Source of the DNA: Emcibacter sp. SYSU 3D8
GTDB lineage: Bacteria; Pseudomonadota; Alphaproteobacteria; SMXS01
Direction of reading: 5' to 3'
Length of the DNA: 61,943 bases
Assembly: GCF_039655875.1 (NCBI RefSeq)
Contig: NZ_JBBYXK010000009.1
Coordinates: 1 to 61,943 of the forward strand
The first letter of the stretch is position 1. Each line of letters begins with the position of its first letter. The notes beneath the pieces are model-generated. The model was not told the origin of the DNA. It saw nothing but the letters and a program-made list of their open reading frames with translations, and ran no database searches. The position numbers and the translations under genes are program-made. Of the stretch, positions 3,665-14,538 are shown in pieces.

Positions 3665-4181
3665 CGCGATGCCCCAGTAAGCGGCTAGCCGTGCCGTTCA
3701 GTGGCAGGAAGAATGATAGGGGCTGTTCGGAACGGGCTCAAGTTATCCGGAATCAGATCGATAGATGGAATATGGTTGCCATCGGGGCTTATCTGCCTTT
3801 GGCGGCTAATTCATCGGGAGATAGTCGGCTTTGCGCCCATCTCGGTCGTTCGCCGCGTGAGGGCGTGCGTCCAAAAGCGGACATGGTCAAAGGGAGTAAT
3901 ATGCCGGCGAGGCGCAACTCATGAACTTCGTTGCCATTTTGCGCCGTCGCCGCGACCGACCGCTGTTGCGAAAGCGGTCGTCAGATTTCCACCCTGAAAG
4001 GCCGAGATCACTTCGCAAGAGCAAGACTAAATGCAGACCGGCTTTCGAGCTGCGCTACAGGCCGCGTACGCCAGCCATCCGCAGCGGGATTCGCATCGTC
4101 TCAGCCGGCGCCTAATTGCCCTGCTGCGCGACGCTTGACATGCTAACATTTTACGCATCAAATGAGGGCCGATTAATTAAC
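3665..4181. other. Gene-poor spacer between mobile module and defence operon
   Basis: No convincing gene on either strand; the open frames present lack ribosome-binding sites and similarity. It must hold the promoter of the minus-strand AlpA-like gene at its left edge and probably that of the plus-strand operon near its AT-rich right edge (about 4135-4180, with the motif GATTAATTAA). I saw no tRNA or clear repeat. Confidence 0.5.
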
Positions 4182-4814
4182 ATGGAGCATGCTGTGGCGG
4201 TTCTCGCGCAGGAGATCGAGATTCTCCCCAGGCTTGCGCACCTTGGTTTATCCAAGGCTGCGCTCTTGGACGTCGTCCGTGCCGCGGTGGGCAGTCGGCG
4301 CAACACTACTCCGTTTCATCCGCTGAGCGCGGGTGGCCAGCTTTCGTGGATTGAGGGCACCGCGCACCTGCGGCGCGTGTTCGTGCCTCAAGGGTGGGAA
4401 ATCTGCCGACGAGACAACATTGAGTCAATCTTCAACGAAGCCGTCGGCATCAAGGTCATTTTCCAGAATGCCGATCGGGCGGGCGATCCGCTGCGTGATC
4501 CGATCGCTACCTCCAAGAAGGGGGCAGGATCGGCGCGGGCGGTCGAGCTCGGTCAGTATGACCTGTTTCCGGAGGATAAAGCGAGGGAGGACGTGGAGAT
4601 CACCGCCGCGCCTTGGGTGCTGTTTGTGTACGCTGACGGTGATGACGTGCGCGCGGAGCTGTCATGTCCGATCGCGATCAATGACGAAAGGTACGACGGC
4701 TTTCATGAGCGCATCCTGCTGGTTCAGAAGGGCGAATGGGACGGCCCCAACCCGCTTGCGGACGACGGCGAGCCGCCGGTCGACTATGAGGTCACTATCT
4801 CGCGCAAAGGCTGA
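4182..4814 (+). CDS. Hypothetical protein, first gene of the SIR2-like/TIR operon
   Basis: A 210-residue soluble protein counted from ATG 4182; an alternative ATG at 4140 adds 14 residues. I recognise no domain. It has a helical N-terminus (AVLAQEIEILPRLAHLGLSK) and a beta-rich C-terminal half with WVLFVYADGDDVRAELSCPI. Its stop overlaps the start of the XRE-ImmA/IrrE gene by one base (TGATG). An unknown protein before such a regulator-protease is a recurrent arrangement in toxin-antitoxin and defence loci. It could be the protein that the protease cleaves or controls, which is inference. Confidence 0.6.
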   Translation: MEHAVAVLAQEIEILPRLAHLGLSKAALLDVVRAAVGSRRNTTPFHPLSAGGQLSWIEGTAHLRRVFVPQGWEICRRDNIESIFNEAVGIKVIFQNADRAGDPLRDPIATSKKGAGSARAVELGQYDLFPEDKAREDVEITAAPWVLFVYADGDDVRAELSCPIAINDERYDGFHERILLVQKGEWDGPNPLADDGEPPVDYEVTISRKG

Positions 4815-5887
4815 TGGTTGCTGTGTTCAACCCGCAAAGACTGGTCTTGGGCCGCAAGCGGCGCAAGCTGACTGCGCGCGCCTTGGCGAGCGCAGTTGGC
4901 CTGTCGCCGATCACGATTTCGCGGCTGGAGAACGGCGCGAACGAGCCGGAGGACGAGACCATCCAGGCGCTGTCGCGCGCCCTCGACTTCCCGCAGTCGT
5001 TCTTTTTCGCGGAGGAGGTGGATGAGCTTCCGGCCGAAGCCGCCAGCTTCCGCAGCCTCTCGTCGATGACGGCGAAGGAACGCGATGCCGCGCTGTCGGC
5101 GGGTGTTATCGCTTATCTATTTCACGACTGGATTGCCGAGCGCTTCAACCTTCCCGACACCGATGTTCCGCATGTTCGGGACGCAACGCCGGAAGCGACG
5201 GCCCAGATCGTGCGTGCCAATTGGGGCCTCGGTCAGCAGCCGATCTCAAACATGATCAAATTGCTCGAGTCCAAGGGCGTACGCGTATTTTCACTTTGCG
5301 AGGACACCAAGAACGTCGATGCATTTTCATGCTGGCGCAATGAGCAGCCGTTCGCTTTTCTAAACACCTTCAAGTCTACAGAGCGCAGTCGTTTCGACGC
5401 GGCACATGAGCTTGGCCATTTGGTCATGCACAAGCACGGCGCGCCACAGGATAGCCGGCAAGCGGAAAGCGAGGCGGATCGGTTCGCCTCGGCCTTCCTC
5501 ATGCCCGCCGACGACGTCGTGAGCCGGATTCGATATGTTTCTAACCTTGAGAGCCTCATCCAGGGCAAAAAGCGCTGGGGGGTCTCGGTCGCTGCATTGA
5601 ACTATCGGCTGCACAAACTCGGTGTCGTCAGCGACTGGCAGAACCGCAGCCTTAATGTTGAGATGTCGAGCCGTGGATATCGCCGCCAGGAACCCGAAGG
5701 GCTTGATCCGGAGACGTCGGCCTTGTGGCCCCAGGTGTTTGCGACGCTTTGGCGTGAGCGGATCACGCGGGATCATATCGCCAACGAACTTCACGTCCCG
5801 ACAAGCGAGCTCGATGGGATCCTTTTTCAGCTCACAGCCCGCACGAAGAGCGAGTCCGAAAAGAAGGGCCGGCTCCGCGCAATCTGA
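4814..5887 (+). CDS. XRE-family regulator with ImmA/IrrE metallo-endopeptidase domain
   Basis: A 357-residue two-domain protein. Residues 8-62 are an XRE HTH (KLTARALASAVGLSPITISR). Residues about 150-260 form the ImmA/IrrE zinc protease: HELGH at 198-202, with an acidic third ligand candidate in the ESEADRFASAFLMP segment around 218-222. A C-terminal region follows. In ImmA and IrrE/PprI, the protease removes a repressor after a stress signal; here repressor-like HTH and protease are fused. It sits second in a tightly packed operon ahead of the NADase-type genes, so it may sense infection or damage and set their expression. Domain calls are firm; the target is unknown. Confidence 0.9.
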   Translation: MVAVFNPQRLVLGRKRRKLTARALASAVGLSPITISRLENGANEPEDETIQALSRALDFPQSFFFAEEVDELPAEAASFRSLSSMTAKERDAALSAGVIAYLFHDWIAERFNLPDTDVPHVRDATPEATAQIVRANWGLGQQPISNMIKLLESKGVRVFSLCEDTKNVDAFSCWRNEQPFAFLNTFKSTERSRFDAAHELGHLVMHKHGAPQDSRQAESEADRFASAFLMPADDVVSRIRYVSNLESLIQGKKRWGVSVAALNYRLHKLGVVSDWQNRSLNVEMSSRGYRRQEPEGLDPETSALWPQVFATLWRERITRDHIANELHVPTSELDGILFQLTARTKSESEKKGRLRAI

Positions 5888-5961
5888 TGCTGCACGATCC
5901 TATCCGCCGATTGCTGGAGGATGGCACAAGGGAATGGCGACATGCCGTTGATGACATTTGA
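5887..5961 (+). CDS. Possible 24-codon coupling micro-ORF
   Basis: An ATG shares its A with the stop of the upstream gene (TGATG at 5885-5889), opens a 24-codon frame starting MLHDPIRRLLEDG, and ends at a TGA inside the start region of the DUF4917 gene (ATGs at 5942 and 5951). This stop-start chain would carry ribosomes from one gene to the next. No family is known and it may be a chance frame, so confidence is low. Confidence 0.25.
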   Translation: MLHDPIRRLLEDGTREWRHAVDDI

Positions 5962-7000
5962 AGCTGCGATCGCCGATTCCGCGACGTTCGCCAAGCGCCA
6001 TCTGCTTCTGGGTAATGGTTTCAGCATCGCCTGCTGCGCAGACATCTTCCATTACGGCTCGCTGTTCGCACAGGCGGACTTCAGCAGCTGCCCGGAGGTG
6101 AAGTCAGTTTTCACATTGCTTGGCACCGAGGATTTCGAGGCAACAATCCGCGCGCTGGAGAATGCCGCGCTCATTCTTCCCGCTTATGTGCCAGATGGTG
6201 CGGGCGCGATCACCAAAATGCAGGTGCATTCCATTGCCCTTAAAGAAATCCTTATCCAAACCATCGCTGGTAATCATCCAGCTGTGCCGCCCGAGATCGA
6301 CGACACCAAGTTCTGGGCGTGCCGAGCTTTCCTCTCGCACTTCCTCGCTACCGGCGGGCAGGTCTTCACGCTTAACTATGACCTGTTGCTGTACTGGACA
6401 CTGATGCACGACGACAATCCGTTCCGCGACCCGATCAATCTCGCCAAGAATGATGGCTTCGGAAACGACGAGGATGATCCCGACGCGGAATATGTCGTAT
6501 GGCAAGGTGAGGTAGGCGCGCATGATGCACGTGTCCACTTCCTTCACGGCGCGCTGCACCTCTTTGACTCAGGGTCCGAACTCAAGAAATACACCTGGGT
6601 GCGCAAGGGTGTGCCGCTGGTTGAGCAGGCCCGCGAGGCGATCGATAAAAACGCCTACCCCCTTTTTGTCGCGGAAGGAACCAGCGCCCAGAAGAAGGCG
6701 AAGATCCGCCACAACGCCTATCTCTACCAAGGCTTCAAGCAGTTCACCGCGAATGCGAGGATTGGCAGTCATTGCTTCTTCATCTTTGGCCACTCACTCG
6801 CCGCGAACGACGACCACATCCTTACCCGCATGGCGCGCGGCAAGTTCCGGAAACTCTATGTCGGCATCTATGGCGACCCGGCATCCGTTGACAATCAGCG
6901 GATCATGAACCGCGCGAACGAGCTTGCCGAGCAGCGCCAGGAAAAATCGCCGCTAGATGTGCAATTTTATGATGCTGCCACGGCGCAAGTCTGGGGCTGA
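5942..7000 (+). CDS. DUF4917 SIR2-like protein, putative NAD-degrading effector
   Basis: 352 residues from ATG 5942, which has AGGGA 8 nt upstream; ATG 5921 directly follows GGAGG with no spacer and is less likely. It carries the marks of the SIR2 clan: a GNGFS nucleotide loop at 24-28, TLNYDLLLYW with N145 in place of the sirtuin Asn, FLHGALHLF with H202 where sirtuins have the catalytic His, and FIFGHSLAANDDHI near 281-293. The YPLFVAEGTSAQK block (239-251) is typical of DUF4917. SIR2-like proteins in bacterial defence usually deplete NAD+ upon infection, causing abortive arrest. Adjacent genes encode TIR and HEPN-type proteins. The catalytic role is inferred from family and conserved residues. 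Confidence 0.8.
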   Translation: MPLMTFEAAIADSATFAKRHLLLGNGFSIACCADIFHYGSLFAQADFSSCPEVKSVFTLLGTEDFEATIRALENAALILPAYVPDGAGAITKMQVHSIALKEILIQTIAGNHPAVPPEIDDTKFWACRAFLSHFLATGGQVFTLNYDLLLYWTLMHDDNPFRDPINLAKNDGFGNDEDDPDAEYVVWQGEVGAHDARVHFLHGALHLFDSGSELKKYTWVRKGVPLVEQAREAIDKNAYPLFVAEGTSAQKKAKIRHNAYLYQGFKQFTANARIGSHCFFIFGHSLAANDDHILTRMARGKFRKLYVGIYGDPASVDNQRIMNRANELAEQRQEKSPLDVQFYDAATAQVWG

Positions 7001-7045
7001 GTGAGGCTTGCTCAAGTGTGTAGCTGCCTGAATAGAGTAGATCAG

Positions 7046-8251
7046 ATGCCGAAGATTATGATGAACGGGAAAACGGTGAGGGCTGGCAACATTGAGAAAG
7101 ATTTGATGCGGGCTGTGGCCGCAAATGTGGTGCAGCAACTGCGCGACCGGTTCAGCGCGATCCGACATCCAGAGACAGGTGAGTTCGCACGCGTCATTGT
7201 GCAGGGCGACTCGATCGAAGATATGTCGGTCCGGATCGAGGGATCGCCAGAACTTATCGAATTTGTACGCGACCGCTTTTCACCGGAAGAGGCAGAGATG
7301 GTGACGCTTATATCTGATGCTCGGGCTCCGCATGCTAAGGTATTTCTCAGCTACGCATCCGAAGATCGCGAGCTCGCTAAAAGGATTGCCGAGGAACTGC
7401 AGGCGAATGGCATTGAGATTTGGTGGGCGGAGTGGGAGCTCGGCGCAGGCGATAGTATTCGCCGAAAGATTGATGCTGGGCTTGGCGGCTGCACCCACTT
7501 CATCGTGCTTTTGAGTCCGACGTCCATCACGCGACCATGGGTCAACGAGGAAATCGATGCCGGCTTCGTGCGAAAGGTTCAGGCCAAGAGCCGGTTCATT
7601 CCGCTTCGGCACGGGCTCGCGGTGGACGCGCTTCCACCGCTCATGTCTGGTATGCTGGCACCCGAAGTGGACGCGTTAGGCTCAAACCTCCAGCAACTCA
7701 TCAATGACATCCTCGGCGTTAGTCGTAAGCCACCTCTCGGCAAGGCGCTAATCGAGGCGACACCAGTTGGTACCGGCTACTCATCGGCAGCTAACAAGGT
7801 CGCTGAGTTGTTTGTCAGGGAGAGTCGCCACGGCCAGTTTGGCGATCCGCAGGTCCGTGTCGACGACATCGTCGAACGGACTGGTCTGACTGAGGACGAC
7901 GTGGCAGATGCGCTCCACGAACTCCGCCATTTCTTCAATATAAGCCATCGTCGCGTGTTGCCTAAAGAGGGACTGTATTCCGAATTTGACCGCCATTGGC
8001 AACCGTGGGATCCGGCTGATGATGCGCTGAAACTTGCCGCTGATATGCTCAACGACCTTGAATTTCCGAGCACCCCAAAGGCTATCGCGGAGCGCTACGG
8101 CTGGAGCGCTCGGCGCCTAAACCCGGCGATGGCGCATCTGCGTGAGCGGGATGCGGCGAGCCTTCGTGATGCGATGGGCCCGGGGCCATTTATCACCATC
8201 AGGATTGACCGCAGCGATAGCACTCGCCGATTCGTGAAAAGCCGAAGCTGA
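7046..8251 (+). CDS. TIR-domain protein with C-terminal helix-turn-helix-like region
   Basis: 401 residues from ATG 7046; GTG 7001, which overlaps the previous stop, is the alternative. After about 95 unassigned residues, a TIR domain spans about 97-225: KVFLSYASEDREL (98-110), WWAEWELGAGDSI (126-138) with E131 at the usual NAD-hydrolase glutamate, and FIVLLSPTSITRPWVNEEI. Residues about 250-400 hold two winged-helix-like units (VDDIVERTGLTEDDVADAL and PKAIAERYGWSARRLNPAM). TIR proteins in bacteria split NAD+ or make cyclic ADP-ribose signals. Position right after a SIR2-like gene recalls ThsB/ThsA of Thoeris, though the domain layout differs. The C-terminal half could bind DNA or a partner. 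Confidence 0.85.
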   Translation: MPKIMMNGKTVRAGNIEKDLMRAVAANVVQQLRDRFSAIRHPETGEFARVIVQGDSIEDMSVRIEGSPELIEFVRDRFSPEEAEMVTLISDARAPHAKVFLSYASEDRELAKRIAEELQANGIEIWWAEWELGAGDSIRRKIDAGLGGCTHFIVLLSPTSITRPWVNEEIDAGFVRKVQAKSRFIPLRHGLAVDALPPLMSGMLAPEVDALGSNLQQLINDILGVSRKPPLGKALIEATPVGTGYSSAANKVAELFVRESRHGQFGDPQVRVDDIVERTGLTEDDVADALHELRHFFNISHRRVLPKEGLYSEFDRHWQPWDPADDALKLAADMLNDLEFPSTPKAIAERYGWSARRLNPAMAHLRERDAASLRDAMGPGPFITIRIDRSDSTRRFVKSRS

Positions 8252-8260
8252 TGCGAGTAT

Positions 8261-9433
8261 ATGGCTGATACACTCAAGAGCCATCTCGTCGGACACGACT
8301 TTTCCGACCGTCCGCCCATTGGCGTTCATATTGTACATCAGCACTATCCAGGCTTCATCGACGTCCTGCCAAACGCGCTGTACTTGGTTGATGGCGGTGG
8401 GTTGCGCGGTGGCGTGCAGGTCCTGCGGCACGTAAGGCCACTCATCGTAACCGACTTCGATAACAGCTTCTCTCGAACCGACGGTTCGGTAGGTCAGGTA
8501 TTCACGCGGCTCGAGAGGCCTATTGGGGAGATTTTAGCAGACGCGAACGTCGTAGACGCCATCGGCCTCGAAGGTCGCAGCGCTCCGACGCTCGCGATTG
8601 AAAAGGGGCCCCGCGGCCGGATCTTCTACCAAGATGTCTTCACAGAACTGCAGACGCTCACTGAGTTCTTTGAGCCCTCTCAATCCGACGGCTTAGTAGC
8701 GCATGGCCTTCTCCTTCGGCGTTTCATCGCGACCTACCGTTTTCTGCATCCTGATCCCCGTTTGGAAATGCCGTCCGAGGCTCCGATCGAGAGCACGCCA
8801 TTGCGCGTAGGGCGGTATGTTTACGCGAGTGAAGAGCGCTCATGGCCGTTTGAGCAGCGAATAGAACAAGCGTACCCATCGGACCTTCAGCTGTCGATAA
8901 TGGCACTTGGTCGTGGCGTAAGATCGCTCCGAGATCACTATGTCTCGCCTGCGGAGCTTGAAAAGCGCTCCCGCAATCTCAATGCTTGGCTCTGCAATGG
9001 CTTTGATTTGCCCGAAAATCTGGTCGAATTAGAGCGTTTGGCCGATCTGGCATTTATAGGTAAGCGATTGCGAGCGGCGGTGATTGAAGCAATTTCGATC
9101 CTTGAGATTAGTCTGCTTCAGGCACGCGATCGCGTGCCTATGGCGCGGCGCCGAGCTAGCTCGATGACCAAAACTGCCGACGATCTGACACTCAAGTTCT
9201 TGGTTAATGCGGTTCTCCCGCAGTTGCTGCGCGCCTATGACGGCGATCCGGGCCCCGTTATCAAGAAGGCGAACGAGGCGCGCGTTATTCGTAATAACGT
9301 AGTTCACAGTCGCTCGGAGCCGACGCTAGAACAGACAAATTTGGTGCTTTCGAGTGTCCGCACCGTTCTTTCTATCTTTGAACTGCCCGACTCCTTTAAG
9401 GGAAATTTTAAGCTTCGTTCGCCCCCTCCTTGA
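8261..9433 (+). CDS. Protein with C-terminal HEPN-type RNase motif
   Basis: 390 residues, starting 9 nt after the TIR gene. The N-terminal two thirds resemble nothing I know, and I see no membrane segment. The C-terminal helical region contains ARVIRNNVVHSRSEPT: R344 and H349 form an Rx4H pair, followed by a long helix (LEQTNLVLSSVRTVLSIF). This is the hallmark of HEPN domains, which act as RNases in many toxin-antitoxin and defence systems. It ends the operon. The HEPN call rests on the motif and its helical setting; the large N-terminal part may be the sensor. Confidence 0.6.
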   Translation: MADTLKSHLVGHDFSDRPPIGVHIVHQHYPGFIDVLPNALYLVDGGGLRGGVQVLRHVRPLIVTDFDNSFSRTDGSVGQVFTRLERPIGEILADANVVDAIGLEGRSAPTLAIEKGPRGRIFYQDVFTELQTLTEFFEPSQSDGLVAHGLLLRRFIATYRFLHPDPRLEMPSEAPIESTPLRVGRYVYASEERSWPFEQRIEQAYPSDLQLSIMALGRGVRSLRDHYVSPAELEKRSRNLNAWLCNGFDLPENLVELERLADLAFIGKRLRAAVIEAISILEISLLQARDRVPMARRRASSMTKTADDLTLKFLVNAVLPQLLRAYDGDPGPVIKKANEARVIRNNVVHSRSEPTLEQTNLVLSSVRTVLSIFELPDSFKGNFKLRSPPP

Positions 9434-9764: not shown

Positions 9765-10058
9765 TCAGCCCGTTAGGCACGCTTTGTACGAGAATTTTTC
9801 GGTCGTGCCGTCAGGCCGGTTGATCCAGAAGCATTTTGTGCCGAAGTCGGCGCTTCGCACACTAAAATGCGTGATACCACAGCCGATCTTGGCTCCCGCC
9901 TCGGGATGTAGCGCAAGCGCATCCCTCAGGACCTGTTCATCGGCGGGGCTGACCTTGTCACCAACATCATAACGATGGAGTATGGCCTGGAGAAAAGCGG
10001 CGGCATCACCCTTTTTCGCGAAGTGCAGAGGGCCAATGGTGAGGGGCTTGGACGGCAT
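9765..10058 (-). CDS. DUF3223 protein, third gene of the Hachiman operon
   Basis: 97 residues forming a single DUF3223 domain: KPLTIGPLHFAKKGDAAAF, DEQVLRDALALHP, KIGCGITHFSVRSADFGTKC, then FWINRPDGTTEKFSYKACL. This short alpha/beta family occurs alone and at the ends of larger proteins, including plant chloroplast and RNA-polymerase subunits; its biochemical role is unknown. The gene starts 18 nt after the HamB stop on the same strand, so it is very likely co-transcribed with the Hachiman pair. It could be an accessory or specificity factor; this is positional inference. Confidence 0.85.
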   Translation of the reverse strand: MPSKPLTIGPLHFAKKGDAAAFLQAILHRYDVGDKVSPADEQVLRDALALHPEAGAKIGCGITHFSVRSADFGTKCFWINRPDGTTEKFSYKACLTG

Positions 10059-10076
10059 CTCAATCTCCTCTGTGGC

Positions 10077-12692
10077 TCATGTTGTTGAGGTCGCGGCTTG
10101 TTCGCTGCTCTCGGGAAGAAGCTTCTCGCGTATCTCGCGCAGGATGATCGCCGGGATGTCCATACCCTCGAATTGCGCCTCACGTTCGGCAACCCAAGCT
10201 TGGCATCCTTCCTTGCTGAGATCGTCGCGGGCGATCTTTTCATAAAGCGCGACGGCGCTCATGCGCGAGAGGCCGAGCTCCATCAGCGAAAGAAGGGTGC
10301 GGGACGAGACCCCGAATTCGAGCTGGGTGCCGATGTCGAGGTCGTGCTCAATCAGATCCACTCGGCCAATCCCGCGCAGATGCAGGTTCAATATGTCCAT
10401 ATAGGCCGAGAAGTATTTTGGCGCTCGGAAGCGCGCAGTCTGCTCGACCAGCTCCATCGTGTGGCGGATCAGGACCGGCAGCCTGAAAGCCCGGCCGCGG
10501 CTACGGTGATAATCGATGTTCTTCCTGATCATTGCGGCGAGCGAGAAGCCCTTCAGCCACTGGACGACGATGAGGGCGTGCAATGGGATCAGACCGTCGG
10601 GCATGAATGCAGGGAACAGATGCTCATTGATGCGCCGCATGATCGTCACGAAGCGATCATAGCTGTCCTGACTGTCAACCGCTGCCGGAAGCAAATTCTC
10701 GATGTCGCCTTCATAGGCGCGGAAAGCATCGAGCAGACGCTGCAGGCCGAGCGCACTAACTCCGGGATGACGGCCAGCGATCTCGGAGCCGATGTCGATC
10801 TGACTAGCGATCGCGGCAAGGCGCCCATCGAGCTTCGCGACCTTCGCGGGGTCATGGCGCTTGGCAAGCGCCGCTTGCGAGATCGAGCCAAGCCGCAGGT
10901 AGGTCGCGAGGAGATAAGAACCTACCTGCTCGAACTGATCAGAGTGTTCCAGTTCCGGGAGCGTGGCGGTCGCGCGGCGGTCGAGATAGTCGGCGAGACC
11001 ATCGCCCAGCTCGATGACGGCATCGCTCTCGCGCTTGATCGGATAGCGCGAGCGCGCCGGAACGCCGACCGGCCAGGCGTTGGTATCATGCGGGTCGATG
11101 CAGATGATGTTGCCTTGGAACTCGTCGCCCCAGCGACCGGCGCGGCCCGCGAGGTTCCAGAAATCATGGGGCTCCATCGGATGACCAATGCCTTTGCGGG
11201 GGCCGCGCAGCACAATGGTGCGGCAGGACAGGTTAACCCCCTCGATCAGCGTCGAGGTGCAGATGAGGAAGCGTATCTTGCCGGAGCGGAACAGCCGTTC
11301 GACCTCGAGCCGGATTAGCGACGGCATATTCCCATAATGGAAAGCGACGCCCCGCTCGACGAGCGGCGCTAGCCTGAACTGAGGATGGACGCCCTTGCGC
11401 GCGAGATCGGCGAGCTCGAGCAACTCGGGGTCAGGCAGATCGGCTGGCGCAAGCAATTGGCTGATCAGATCGGCAATTTCTTCGGAATCGGCCGCGCGGT
11501 TGGCATAGACGAGTGTCCCACCTCGTTCGCCTGCCGCCACAGCGATAAACGCCAGCCGCTTTCGGAGGCCGGCTGGGGAGCTGGCGAGCCGAAGGACGCC
11601 GACTGGCAGCGGCGCGTCATGCTGGCGAACCGAGAGATTCCATAGTTTAGGTTTGCCCGGGACCTGCTCCGCCACGATCACATTCTGGAGGACGGTCGGC
11701 GCATCGCTGTCGATGGCGGCAACCTCGACACCTTCAGGCGCGTCAGCGAGCAATTCCTCGGGATTCTGAGTCGACGGGCTGATGAAAACGAGCTGGAGGC
11801 CGGGATTGGCGCGAGCGGCGCGCTCGATCGCATCCTGGAGGATCACTCCGCGTTGGTTATCTCCGATTTTGTGCGCCTCATCGACGATCAGGAGATTAAT
11901 TGCGATCGCGTCGCCAAGGATATTGGCGAACAGGTGCAGCCGTTCCTGTGTGAAGACGAAGATGAGACGCGCGCCACCGGCGAGCGCGGCATCATATTTA
12001 TCCCGCAACGGGAGCGAGGAAACCTGAACCCCACTTTCCTTGCCAAGCAGAGCGACGAGGCTGCCTTCAATCTCCGAGACGAGGGCGCGTGTCGGCGCCA
12101 AGTAGACAGCGACACGTGCCTTGCCCGATCGCATCTGGTCGATCAGCCATTGCAGGACTAGAAACGTCTTGCCCGACGCGGTCGGCGCCGACGCGGAGAG
12201 CCAGCGATGATCGGCAGCATCCTTCCAAAAGCGCTGCTGGAAGTCGTTGACCTGGAGCCAGCGTCCGCTCGATTCGACGAGAATGGCCTTGTCCATCTGG
12301 CGGCGCTGAGCCTCGATGCGGAGCGACATGCCGAGCCTGCCGTCGAGATCGGCGGTAAGTAGGTTGCGCTCGCCGGCCAAAGCGATCGCTCGGAAGTTGG
12401 ACAGCTTGCCGAGGAGCACTGTACCCGCATCCTTGACCGGATCGCTTGTCGACAGGGTGACCGCCCCTGTTGCGATCCGTAGTGCTGCTTCCTGATGCAG
12501 CCGCTGATCGGACCGGGCCAGGATGCTGCCCGCAAGCAGCAGGCGGGACCAATCGATTTCAACTACGGCAACGGAGTCGGCTGAGGGAACCAGATTGTCG
12601 ATCTCGGTGACGACCGTACGCTTGGTAAGCTCGTCGAGTTCGGTCTTAATGCCTTCATTGAGGAGCCAGGCTTGAAGATCGATCAGGCTCAT
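10077..12692 (-). CDS. hamB: HamB, Hachiman defence helicase
   Basis: 871-residue superfamily 2 DEAD/DEAH-type helicase. Walker A is at 169-176 (APTASGKT), motif Ia APTRALVSE near 199-207 and the Walker B box DEAH at 271-274. The second RecA domain has VAFHYGNMPSLIRLEVE and TLIEGVNLSCRTIVLRGP, with the arginine-finger region FWNLAGRAGRWG. The rest is a long helical C-terminus. In Hachiman, HamB scans DNA and holds the nuclease HamA in check until damaged or invading DNA is met. The start overlaps the HamA stop by 4 nt (ATGA), the usual gene order. No inactivating change is visible. Confidence 0.9.
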   Translation of the reverse strand: MSLIDLQAWLLNEGIKTELDELTKRTVVTEIDNLVPSADSVAVVEIDWSRLLLAGSILARSDQRLHQEAALRIATGAVTLSTSDPVKDAGTVLLGKLSNFRAIALAGERNLLTADLDGRLGMSLRIEAQRRQMDKAILVESSGRWLQVNDFQQRFWKDAADHRWLSASAPTASGKTFLVLQWLIDQMRSGKARVAVYLAPTRALVSEIEGSLVALLGKESGVQVSSLPLRDKYDAALAGGARLIFVFTQERLHLFANILGDAIAINLLIVDEAHKIGDNQRGVILQDAIERAARANPGLQLVFISPSTQNPEELLADAPEGVEVAAIDSDAPTVLQNVIVAEQVPGKPKLWNLSVRQHDAPLPVGVLRLASSPAGLRKRLAFIAVAAGERGGTLVYANRAADSEEIADLISQLLAPADLPDPELLELADLARKGVHPQFRLAPLVERGVAFHYGNMPSLIRLEVERLFRSGKIRFLICTSTLIEGVNLSCRTIVLRGPRKGIGHPMEPHDFWNLAGRAGRWGDEFQGNIICIDPHDTNAWPVGVPARSRYPIKRESDAVIELGDGLADYLDRRATATLPELEHSDQFEQVGSYLLATYLRLGSISQAALAKRHDPAKVAKLDGRLAAIASQIDIGSEIAGRHPGVSALGLQRLLDAFRAYEGDIENLLPAAVDSQDSYDRFVTIMRRINEHLFPAFMPDGLIPLHALIVVQWLKGFSLAAMIRKNIDYHRSRGRAFRLPVLIRHTMELVEQTARFRAPKYFSAYMDILNLHLRGIGRVDLIEHDLDIGTQLEFGVSSRTLLSLMELGLSRMSAVALYEKIARDDLSKEGCQAWVAEREAQFEGMDIPAIILREIREKLLPESSEQAATSTT

Positions 12693-13636
12693 TTCTTGAG
12701 CCCCATCGCGGCCAGGAACGCCGAGCGGAATGCCTCTGCAGACGGCAGGGGCAGGCAGAAGAATTCGATTTCGAACTGCTCGAGCTTATCGGACTTGAGG
12801 CGATCGCCGATTCTCGACCGCCACTTCTCGAGCTCAGTCCTCGCGGCTTCGGCGATATCATCGGCGACAGCCTTGGCATCATCGCCGGGATAAAAAGGCG
12901 CGTCGAAACCCACGAGGGCAACACCGCAATATTGGACACGCTTCGACATCGCTGAGTTCTTGTCGAAATAGCGCTTGAGCGCTTCAGTCAGATTTGGATC
13001 GCTCAAATCCGCCTTGTCGCTGAGCAGAATGAGATCGCGCTCGCGCTCGGCGCCCTCATGCTCGGGCTCGACAAGGAACGGCGCGAGCGAGGTGAGGCAA
13101 TCCTGTATAGCGGACGCCACATTCTTATAAATCTTGGACTCGCCCCAATAAAGTTTGAGCAAGCCTTCGGCGGTCACGCCCGCATACACGCCATCGGCGC
13201 CATGATAGTGCATGCGTGTGTCAGTCTTGATATCCATCTTACAGAGGATCTGCGGGAGCTTGAGGAATCGCTCAGCCAAAAGGAAGAGGAGCATCTCCCC
13301 GCCCTCGCCGGTCTTGGCGAGATCGGTGAAGGAGCGCTTTGCCTGCTCGACCAGCGCGGCGACCGCCGCGGTGCTGTTATACTTCTGGTCGCGTGCGTGG
13401 GCTTTGGCGAGTTGCGAGCGAGGGATCGCATAATCGGCCACCGCGTCGCGCATCAGTTCGGCGAGGCGGTGGGGCTGGACGCGTCCGTTTCCGTCGACGG
13501 TTAGGGCGTGGCAGTGGACCTTGACCGCGTGACCGTCGATCAGAACGTCACGCTCGATCAGGGACAGGTGGACGTCGAGAGCTTCGGGATCTCCCGTCAG
13601 CGCAGCTGTCAGATCGCTAGCGGTGATGTTCGACAG
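12689..13636 (-). CDS. hamA: HamA, Hachiman nuclease (DUF1837), probable CTG start
   Basis: DUF1837 nuclease of the Hachiman system. The first ATG in frame is at 13453 (254 aa), but an open frame continues upstream to a stop at 13651-13649 with protein-like sequence (LSNITASDLTAALTGDPEAL). The string AAGGGGGG lies 5 nt before a CTG at 13636, so I extend the gene to 315 aa. In that numbering GEGGEMLL (E114), GADGVYAG (D148) and LYWGESKIY (E166, K168) form a PD-(D/E)xK-like active site. HamA cuts DNA indiscriminately when released by HamB. The CTG start is inferred; the family and partner are firm. Confidence 0.85.
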   Translation of the reverse strand: MSNITASDLTAALTGDPEALDVHLSLIERDVLIDGHAVKVHCHALTVDGNGRVQPHRLAELMRDAVADYAIPRSQLAKAHARDQKYNSTAAVAALVEQAKRSFTDLAKTGEGGEMLLFLLAERFLKLPQILCKMDIKTDTRMHYHGADGVYAGVTAEGLLKLYWGESKIYKNVASAIQDCLTSLAPFLVEPEHEGAERERDLILLSDKADLSDPNLTEALKRYFDKNSAMSKRVQYCGVALVGFDAPFYPGDDAKAVADDIAEAARTELEKWRSRIGDRLKSDKLEQFEIEFFCLPLPSAEAFRSAFLAAMGLKK

Positions 13637-13894
13637 ACTGCCCCCCTTCTATTCTTTCCGTCGTCCATGACGAGTAACTTTTACATTGGTAAACCTAACC
13701 GCGTAGAAGACCCTCGTCTATCATTGGTCGAACAAGGCGGATGACGGTCACGGTCGATGGCGGTTCAACGGATGCTCGGGTCGCCTTCGCTCGCACTGCG
13801 AATATGACGGCTTTCGGGAAAACGGCTGAAACCGTTCTACGGCCACCTTGGGCGCTTTCCGGACTAGGACTTCGCTCGAGGCTTGGATGGGAGG

Positions 13895-14473
13895 TCACCA
13901 CATCCTGGTCGCGATCTCGCGTTCTTCCGGTCCGAGCGCATTCGCGTAGATGGCGGTTGTCGAGATATCCGCGTGCCCCATCCACCTTCGTAAGAGGTTG
14001 AGTGGTACGCCTGAGTGGATTGCGTGGACGCCGTACCCATGCCGCAAGCCCTTTGGTGTCGCCTGGGGACCAGATACCCCAGCTTCTTTCATGATCGACT
14101 TGATCCTTCGCCAAGCTGTCATCCGATGCATAGGGAACAGTTGGCCGTTGGTGCCCAAATTCCTCGACAGTGAAAACCGATGTACCTCGCTTGCCAGATG
14201 GTCAGGAATCGGAATTTGGCGCACATGCAGCACCCCGCGCTTCTTGAGGGTGAACACCGCGATCAAACCGTCGCTTCGTTCAACCGACGCAGACCGTAGG
14301 GACAGGACCTCGGAAACGCGGCAACCAGTGTACACCAGCAACTCGCAAAGCAAGCGAGTCTGCCGGTCGCGGCTTGGAAGCACGGCCAGAACGCGGGCGC
14401 GCTCGTCCTCATTGATATAGAGCCGCCGTGTCTGGCGGTCATAGAGATGCATTTCTTGGTGTTGGGACGCCAT
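13895..14473 (-). CDS. Compact tyrosine recombinase/integrase
   Basis: 192 residues from ATG 14473; a longer frame reaches 14518. It is a catalytic domain nearly alone, without the usual N-terminal core-binding domain. Catalytic residues: R52 in TGCRVSEVLSLR, a Lys in TLKKRG (77-78), R144 in PKGLRHGYG, H167 in WMGHADI and nucleophile Y176 in TAIYANAL. The first position of the HxxR box is Lys, as in several related integrases. It marks the right boundary of the accessory island, which suggests it integrates or rearranges this region. Size resembles small phage or plasmid integrases and FimB/FimE-type inverting enzymes (about 190-200 aa). Confidence 0.88.
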   Translation of the reverse strand: MASQHQEMHLYDRQTRRLYINEDERARVLAVLPSRDRQTRLLCELLVYTGCRVSEVLSLRSASVERSDGLIAVFTLKKRGVLHVRQIPIPDHLASEVHRFSLSRNLGTNGQLFPMHRMTAWRRIKSIMKEAGVSGPQATPKGLRHGYGVHAIHSGVPLNLLRRWMGHADISTTAIYANALGPEEREIATRMW

Positions 14474-14538
14474 GGGGTTTGCGTGATGCAGCCACGGCCT
14501 GCCGGCGGATCCGCCCATCGATGCCAGTGGCCTTTCAG

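Follow-up and report, generated by a model that had tools for sequence, protein, structure and literature searches.

By its gene content, the hamA-hamB-hamC operon of Emcibacter sp. SYSU 3D8 is a Hachiman type II (HamABC) defence operon, and its nuclease gene very likely starts at CTG. The window analysed is the whole stretch of 61,943 nucleotides (contig NZ_JBBYXK010000009.1, positions 1–61,943). Two features seem, from sequence comparison, to be new: the weak and very rare start codon of the hamA nuclease gene, retained across many relatives, and the sharing of the small third protein with other defence operons. The three-gene arrangement itself is already known, so the finding as first given is ordinary.

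All three genes are encoded on the minus strand. The hamA gene (12689–13636) encodes the effector nuclease, a DUF1837 protein of PD-(D/E)XK type with 315 amino acids counted from the CTG start. The hamB gene (10077–12692) encodes an 871-amino-acid SF2 Ski2/Hel308-like helicase, the predicted sensor, and hamC (9765–10058) encodes a 97-amino-acid DUF3223/DCL protein. The hamA stop and the hamB start share ATGA, a 4-nt overlap. The hamC ATG follows the hamB stop after 18 nt, and a putative Shine-Dalgarno site read from the sequence, GAGGAG (10065–10070, minus strand), lies within that gap. Strand, overlap and gap are as the original prediction described them. A tyrosine recombinase gene (13895–14518, minus strand; PF00589, E 1.6e-21) lies directly upstream of the operon; it belongs to the island setting and is outside the Hachiman system. 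The locus adjoins other defence genes as well as the recombinase.

HamA matches Pfam HamA (PF08878, E 2e-62) and PADLOC HamA2 (E 9e-126), with both scores computed on the portion from 13453 only. It contains the D...WGExK motif, which is kept in 42 of 42 representatives. HamB has an uninterrupted reading frame, DEAD and Helicase_C domains (Pfam) and a 1396-bit match to PADLOC HamB2. HamC matches PF11523 (E 2e-25) and PADLOC HamC2 (E 7.5e-44), and its 89.6 bits on the DUF3223/DCL profile PF11523, against a curated cut-off of 21, place it in the family. The locus thus has what defines type II: a HamA with D...GExK, an adjacent SF2 HamB and a HamC beside hamAB. Type I, defined as hamA and hamB without hamC, does not describe it. 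Nor does ABC-3C/Lamassu, in which an SMC-like ATPase and a middle component stand by DUF3223; here the upstream gene encodes HamB.

This arrangement was named Hachiman type II, and the DUF3223 protein HamC, by Payne et al. 2021 (PADLOC, PMC8565338), who counted 379 type II systems, about 3.8% of Hachiman, and reported that one three-gene system, from Sphingopyxis witflariensis, protects E. coli from phage. Gene content is identical to that of the window operon, for which HamA2, HamB2 and HamC2 are the best PADLOC profiles. Type I (Tuck et al. 2024, PMC12278908) shares the nuclease-helicase pair, with a D-E(X)K nuclease and a Ski2-like helicase; unlike the window operon, it is described in the available part of that paper with no mention of a third gene. 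The solved type I HamB (8vx9) is only distantly like the window HamB (E 1e-16). The original prediction had proposed the DUF3223 gene as a third member added to a canonical two-gene system. Its association with hamAB holds, but it is not new, having been part of PADLOC's type II since 2021.

The outer end of hamA had been placed at 13636. No ATG, GTG or TTG stands there, the first in-frame one being at 13453, but comparison with relatives makes the CTG (13634–13636, minus strand) very likely the true start. In the window, an in-frame stop lies 12 nt upstream of the CTG with no ATG, GTG or TTG in between. A Shine-Dalgarno-like site read from the sequence, AAGGGGGG (13641–13648, minus strand), is followed 4 nt later by the CTG. 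Of the 42 hamA representatives, 23 have CTG at the aligned start, 12 have TTG and 4 have ATG. A Shine-Dalgarno core is found 3–12 nt before the start in 37 of the 42, versus 73 of the 541 CTG/TTG codons that lie in frame within the genes. The column was also considered as an ordinary internal leucine, and this was rejected: it uses just two of the six leucine codons, CTG and TTG (33/33 leucine rows), while in the other 32 leucine columns of the same genes CTG and TTG together account for 38% on average and 60% at maximum.

The other two genes were counted the same way, with no codon preference. The aligned first codon of hamB is ATG in 48/53 and GTG in 5/53, and that of hamC is ATG in 51/60, with GCT in 4 and GCA in 1, rows whose alignment is shifted by one codon. 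These counts replace an earlier one that favoured usual codons (ATG in 49/54 for hamB and 55/60 for hamC). The four ATG-started type II hamA genes (4/42) all fall on one branch, and three divergent systems (L103–L105) have hamA genes with ATG candidates too. A weak start is not obligatory for type II hamA, because some use ATG. As a control, and a thin one, type I starts were checked at 12 loci, of which four were dropped (minus-strand match, meaningless frames); the remaining eight show ATG or GTG candidates in a scan that covered ATG, GTG and TTG, so that CTG would be invisible.

CUG is reported to make up 0.024% of bacterial start codons, and its output, in figures from other hosts, is under 1% of that of AUG. 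The hamA gene of the tested type II system of S. witflariensis (NZ_NISJ01000011.1) is likewise CTG-started by alignment, a feature that goes unmentioned in the available part of Payne et al. (PMC8565338). Gene calling restricted to ATG, GTG and TTG truncates the HamA N-terminus, with 61 residues lost in the window. A testable question is whether HamA, a suicidal nuclease, has its dose set by the rare start codon.

DUF3223 was proposed to travel with HamAB elsewhere, and it does: of the 69 loci found by HamC, 55 have hamB upstream in the same orientation. These 55 loci keep gene order and strand, and the spacing is mostly short; 50 of them are from Pseudomonadota (Alpha, Beta and Gamma), and the record labels assign the other five, metagenome bins among them, to other phyla. 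This spread contradicts a chance pairing confined to this genome or its close relatives. A DUF3223 gene follows all 16 of the plasmid HamA genes that are at least 59% identical to the window HamA. In a sample of 385 genomes of the class, DUF3223 occurs in 4 and HamA in 12, and all four DUF3223 matches lie 2.1–5.3 kb from HamA, an association beyond chance. In a second class (78 genomes, the class of G477) DUF3223 occurs in 2 and HamA in none, the HamA search there having matched nothing anywhere, so this class is uninformative about the link. Neither HamA nor HamC matched any of 50,697 phage records, and no match to either was confirmed in viral contigs. In a HamB tree, 47 HamC-bearing HamB proteins form one branch (support 100) separate from seven HamC-less ones; the base is unsure, with the HamC-less proteins on long branches. 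Comparison of neighbourhoods and HamB sequences shows that the third gene is a fixed component of the operons of this HamAB clade.

DUF3223 also occurs outside Hachiman. Nine ABC-three-component (ABC-3C) operons end in a DUF3223 of the same short kind as in the window, and the ATPase of every one matches LmuB at E 2e-41 or better. Unlike the window operon, these Lamassu-like operons lack HamA and HamB and have a core of CTD9, MC5 and an SMC-like ATPase. Another SMC-like ATPase is found in three operons ending in DUF3223. Further contexts exist, and several of the loci inspected had no nameable partner gene. Plant Pol IV/V and a La protein from a ciliate contain the domain too. One small domain may serve Hachiman and Lamassu-like systems alike as an accessory, which is a testable question.

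An accessory or regulatory subunit, as originally suggested, is the best reading of HamC from its sequence and gene context. At about even odds (probability roughly 0.5), the operon would combine a nuclease-helicase pair with a nucleic-acid-binding accessory subunit, the nuclease being scarce through weak initiation. By analogy with type I, HamB would restrain HamA while DNA is intact and activate it on encountering damaged DNA or a free single-stranded end, after which all cellular DNA would be lost. The small HamC may bind nucleic acid and/or the ATPase and tune recognition or release, since the domain follows LmuB-like ATPases and occurs in Pol IV/V and the La protein. Nucleic-acid binding by DUF3223 is not proven, because the domain is dispensable in the La protein for discriminating pre-tRNA from mature tRNA and for binding uridylate RNA, and because Pol IV without its DeCL domain is still active. 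A CUG or UUG start would yield little HamA compared with HamB, translated from an AUG that overlaps the stop codon of hamA; on the toxic subunit, such a weak start could be a built-in safety margin. A wider proposal, tentative and a little short of even odds, is that a conserved CUG/UUG safety catch keeps HamA scarce relative to HamB in most type II systems and that DUF3223 is a swappable adaptor shared by several DNA-sensing defence ATPases (HamB and LmuB-like SMC).

HamC could instead be an inhibitor or antitoxin-like partner that keeps HamA off between infections. A small last gene in an operon with a toxic nuclease, present after every one of the 16 close plasmid hamA genes, would suit that role, but HamB suffices to restrain HamA in type I (PMC12278908) and DUF3223 also occurs in ABC-3C operons that have no HamA; we consider it unlikely. 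Somewhat less probable still is a second effector, an enzyme acting on nucleic acid or nucleotide. Across 72 diverse DUF3223 proteins A19, Y30, F77, R81 and D83 never vary, and H51, K57, C76 and further residues hardly do. An effector may also be missing from ABC-3C operons, because in the five scanned the first proteins (158–193 aa) have CTD9 as their sole recognised domain. Against this, the HamA catalytic motif is intact in all 42 representatives, and the fold search, weak evidence here, found no enzyme above background.

HamC might also regulate hamA translation, binding the leader or a ribosome that initiates at CUG so that HamA rises upon infection: the unusual start codon is conserved, and the domain encoded alongside it is found in RNA-related proteins too. 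Such a role is improbable: Rfam at gathering scores finds no RNA element in the window (a tRNA scan also found none), and long-HamC systems include ATG starts. It is very improbable that hamC is a passenger picked up by chance. Defence islands accumulate genes, and the neighbours here include a recombinase and further defence genes; yet the arrangement is repeated in 55 loci, and that conservation already speaks against a passenger, as does the single branch of HamC-bearing HamB. The accessory subunit remains the preferred reading.

The AlphaFold model of HamC (pLDDT 84.8) has the same fold as PDB 2K0M, Rhodospirillum rubrum Rru_A0810 (Z 14.9; 52% identity to the window protein). All other matches in the fold search had Z of 3.0 or below, and no function was read from them. 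Payne et al. (PMC8565338) call the 2K0M protein a HamC and liken its topology to NTF2; in the fold search one NTF2-like chain appeared at Z 2.1, too weak to use. The 2K0M protein is 81% identical to the DUF3223 protein of an ABC-3C operon (L106) and at most 61% identical to any Hachiman-linked one (72 compared). The solved structure may belong to an ABC-3C/Lamassu-like system rather than to Hachiman.

The operon lies on the minus strand of the window and comprises hamA (13636–12689; Pfam HamA, E = 2e-62), hamB (12692–10077; Pfam DEAD and Helicase_C) and a DUF3223 gene, hamC (10058–9765; Pfam DUF3223, E = 2e-25). Their best PADLOC profiles are HamA2, HamB2 (1396 bits) and HamC2, respectively. 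The window sequence bears out the noted 4-nt overlap of hamA and hamB (ATGA) and the 18-nt gap between hamB and the DUF3223 gene. The HamA nuclease motif D...WGExK is intact in the window and in 42/42 representatives. The HamAB-DUF3223 association is previously published. In the available text of the PADLOC paper (PMC8565338), the combination of HamAB with a DUF3223 gene, there called HamC, is given the name Hachiman type II; the window operon thus belongs to an already described type. The same text counts 379 such systems (~3.8% of Hachiman), reports protection by a Sphingopyxis witflariensis type II system cloned into E. coli, and states that HamC function is unknown. In the searched literature, Hachiman and DUF3223 were found together in PMC8565338 alone, and "HamC" and "DUF3223" are absent from the available text of the main Hachiman mechanism paper (PMC12278908). 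By sequence, the best solved relative of window HamB (10077–12692) is PDB 9wh1_B (E = 4e-44, residues 148–814), titled "DNA polymerase theta (Helicase domain only)," a title perhaps wrong for this chain; the solved HamB 8vx9 is a far poorer match (E = 1e-16).

A total of 84,980 species genomes were scanned with five DUF3223 proteins, yielding 69 HamC loci. The proposal that DUF3223 accompanies hamAB beyond this genome held, as 55/69 loci had a same-strand hamB match no more than 3 kb upstream of HamC. hamA was also present in 51 of these, and both genes were full length and uninterrupted in 42; the others have contig-end cuts, frameshifts or interruptions. Broken copies include G366, a genome with fragmented hamB, and G037, with insertions within and 3′ of hamB. 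By record label, the 55 loci are from Alphaproteobacteria (40), Beta- (7) and Gammaproteobacteria (3), Acidobacteriota (2), and single records of Verrucomicrobiota, Cyanobacteriota and Bdellovibrionota. The cyanobacterial record is a metagenome bin whose HamA adjoins Pseudomonas in the tree, and the Bdellovibrionota label is that of a Micavibrio bin, a group placed outside that phylum. hamA and hamB mostly overlap by 4 nt. Of 60 loci, 55 have a hamB-hamC spacing of 2–51 nt; among the other five, hamB and hamC overlap in three, and a 1,348-nt insert separates them in two from the same genome. The other 14 loci are two contig edges, seven ABC-three-component (ABC-3C) operons, three with IS1595-like transposases, and two remnants adjoining apparent transposase genes. 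In the remnants (L107 and L113, Roseobacter group), frames beside the transposase-like genes resemble the WGR and DUF2235 genes adjoining the intact operon of plasmid L119; these loci are probably decayed Hachiman type II operons.

In a class sample of 385 genomes not selected by HamC, DUF3223 was found in 4 and HamA in 12, and 4/4 DUF3223 matches were 2.1–5.3 kb from a HamA match. In a phylum sample of 398 genomes, DUF3223 was found in 7 and HamA in 16. Three of these seven adjoin HamA, in genomes common to the class sample, and four do not, one having HamA on a different contig. Within the window's order, DUF3223 was detected in 2/10 genomes, the window's own and G003, where it is non-Hachiman. 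Plasmids were searched with HamA, and 23/72,556 records matched. A DUF3223 gene is 3′ of hamB in 16/16 records with HamA of at least 59% identity, 12 by inspection of the record (including the unannotated pair L133 and L141) and 4 by coordinates of HamC matches. The remaining seven (29–50% identity, two of them short matches) had no match in the HamC plasmid search. No HamC was seen in two that were inspected; absence from the other five is weakly indicated, because the same search missed the long Agrobacterium DUF3223.

The HamB tree included 54 sequences, 47 with HamC and 7 without. HamC-bearing HamBs form one branch (support 100) separate from the HamC-less, and the root is unsure because of long branches at the base. 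The third slot within this branch holds a short DUF3223, a DUF3223 of 231–246 aa, or the kind found in three divergent systems, L103–L105. The DUF3223 of these three clusters with ABC-3C DUF3223 and PDB 2K0M (support 98). This suggests, but does not prove, that DUF3223 has been exchanged between systems, because the DUF3223 tree has just 98 columns. The longer HamC is found on Rhizobium, Agrobacterium, Pseudorhizobium and Bartonella plasmids (L128, L131–L137, L140, and L141); its extra C-terminal part had no Pfam domain match in the three scanned (L128, L132, and L133).

Window hamA has no in-frame ATG, GTG or TTG from the upstream stop to residue 62, and a CTG is located 4 nt 3′ of AAGGGGGG. 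Starts were compared in 42 HamAs (<95% identical) selected from 56 whose N-terminus is complete. At the aligned start position, 23 have CTG, 12 TTG, 4 ATG and 1 GTG; the start is unclear in L055 and in L057, both of which have an ATG or GTG 3–4 codons upstream. A Shine-Dalgarno core is 3–12 nt upstream of 22/23 CTG starts versus 73/541 internal in-frame CTG/TTG codons of the same genes. No in-frame ATG, GTG or TTG is upstream of 13/23 CTG starts; L062, scored CTG, has an ATG 3 codons upstream and lacks a Shine-Dalgarno core. Before two one-codon shifts, 33/33 leucine rows in the start column were CTG or TTG, a share averaging 38% at 32 other leucine columns. Aligned first codons picked without preference were ATG in 48/53 and GTG in 5/53 hamB genes, and ATG in 51/60 hamC genes. 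Plasmid annotation begins at the CTG itself in L128 and L131, and at a TTG downstream of the CTG in L119. In the HamA tree, ATG starts group on a single branch; every CTG and TTG start, the GTG and both unclear starts fall among the remaining 38 rows (support 99). The tree holds four changes among CTG, TTG and ATG; as the rows are related, the 42 starts are not 42 independent events. L103–L105, outside the 42, have ATG candidates.

CUG makes up 0.024% of bacterial start codons, and output relative to AUG is 0.86% for CUG and 29.8% for UUG, as quoted in the available text of PMC11497404. HamA nuclease would be scarce beside its well-translated restrainer HamB. Such an arrangement fits the available account in PMC12278908, in which HamB restrains HamA and activates it on DNA damage. 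HamC, for its part, might act in sensing, stabilization or restraint. Among the papers listed by keyword searches, none was found to tie this rare start codon to Hachiman. The conserved non-AUG start of this effector gene is worth following.

Outside Hachiman, a short DUF3223 is the last gene of an ABC-3C operon in nine loci. Profiles confirmed both CTD9 and MC5 in L106, L108, L109, L112 and L120, and MC5 alone in L116; the system is named in the annotation of L123. L110 and L111 were called from the ATPase and frame appearance, and small partner frames were not seen in L111. All nine ATPases match Lamassu LmuB (E = 2e-41 or better). Lamassu-type ATPases sense DNA ends. Reuse of DUF3223 by LmuB-like operons is worth following. 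A different SMC-like ATPase, with a weaker LmuB match (E = 4e-25 to 3e-21), is paired with DUF3223 on two Bradyrhizobium plasmids (L121 and L130) and in one genome (L043). The L121 row also carries an AbiEi/AbiEii pair, SbcCD-like and more SMC-like genes, and a nearby type IIL restriction gene; its DUF3223 is long.

L114 encodes an IS1595 transposase, then a profile-checked RhuM protein, then DUF3223, and L115/L018 has the same layout by eye. L117 is similar, with a middle protein lacking a Pfam family match and a stop in the DUF3223 frame. This arrangement is possibly a passenger module of the insertion sequence. The HamC search of plasmids gave 22 records, 13 of which were inspected; five (three Streptomyces, Cedecea, and Methanothrix) have DUF3223 without a nameable partner, and an Azospirillum plasmid has it 3′ of a 498-aa hypothetical protein. 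No recognized partner was found in phylum-sample genomes G477, G445 and G689, and the G445 DUF3223 has an internal stop.

Beyond prokaryotes, phmmer detected DUF3223 in plant Pol IV and V. In the available text of PMC6753486, Pol IV activity persists without the domain, and its loss from Pol V leaves Pol V transcripts undetectable. A ciliate La protein also contains DUF3223, which is required for tRNA-mediated suppression and not needed for pre-tRNA discrimination or uridylate binding (PMC9705548, available text). We infer a nucleic-acid-linked accessory role as the thread common to these contexts.

The window also contains a plus-strand defence cluster (4116–9433). It encodes RmrT (4116–4814), RmrA (4814–5887), a DUF4917 protein (5921–7000; PADLOC PDC-S21), a TIR-domain protein (7001–8251) and a 390-aa protein (8261–9433) for which no family match passed the threshold, and is convergent with the Hachiman operon.
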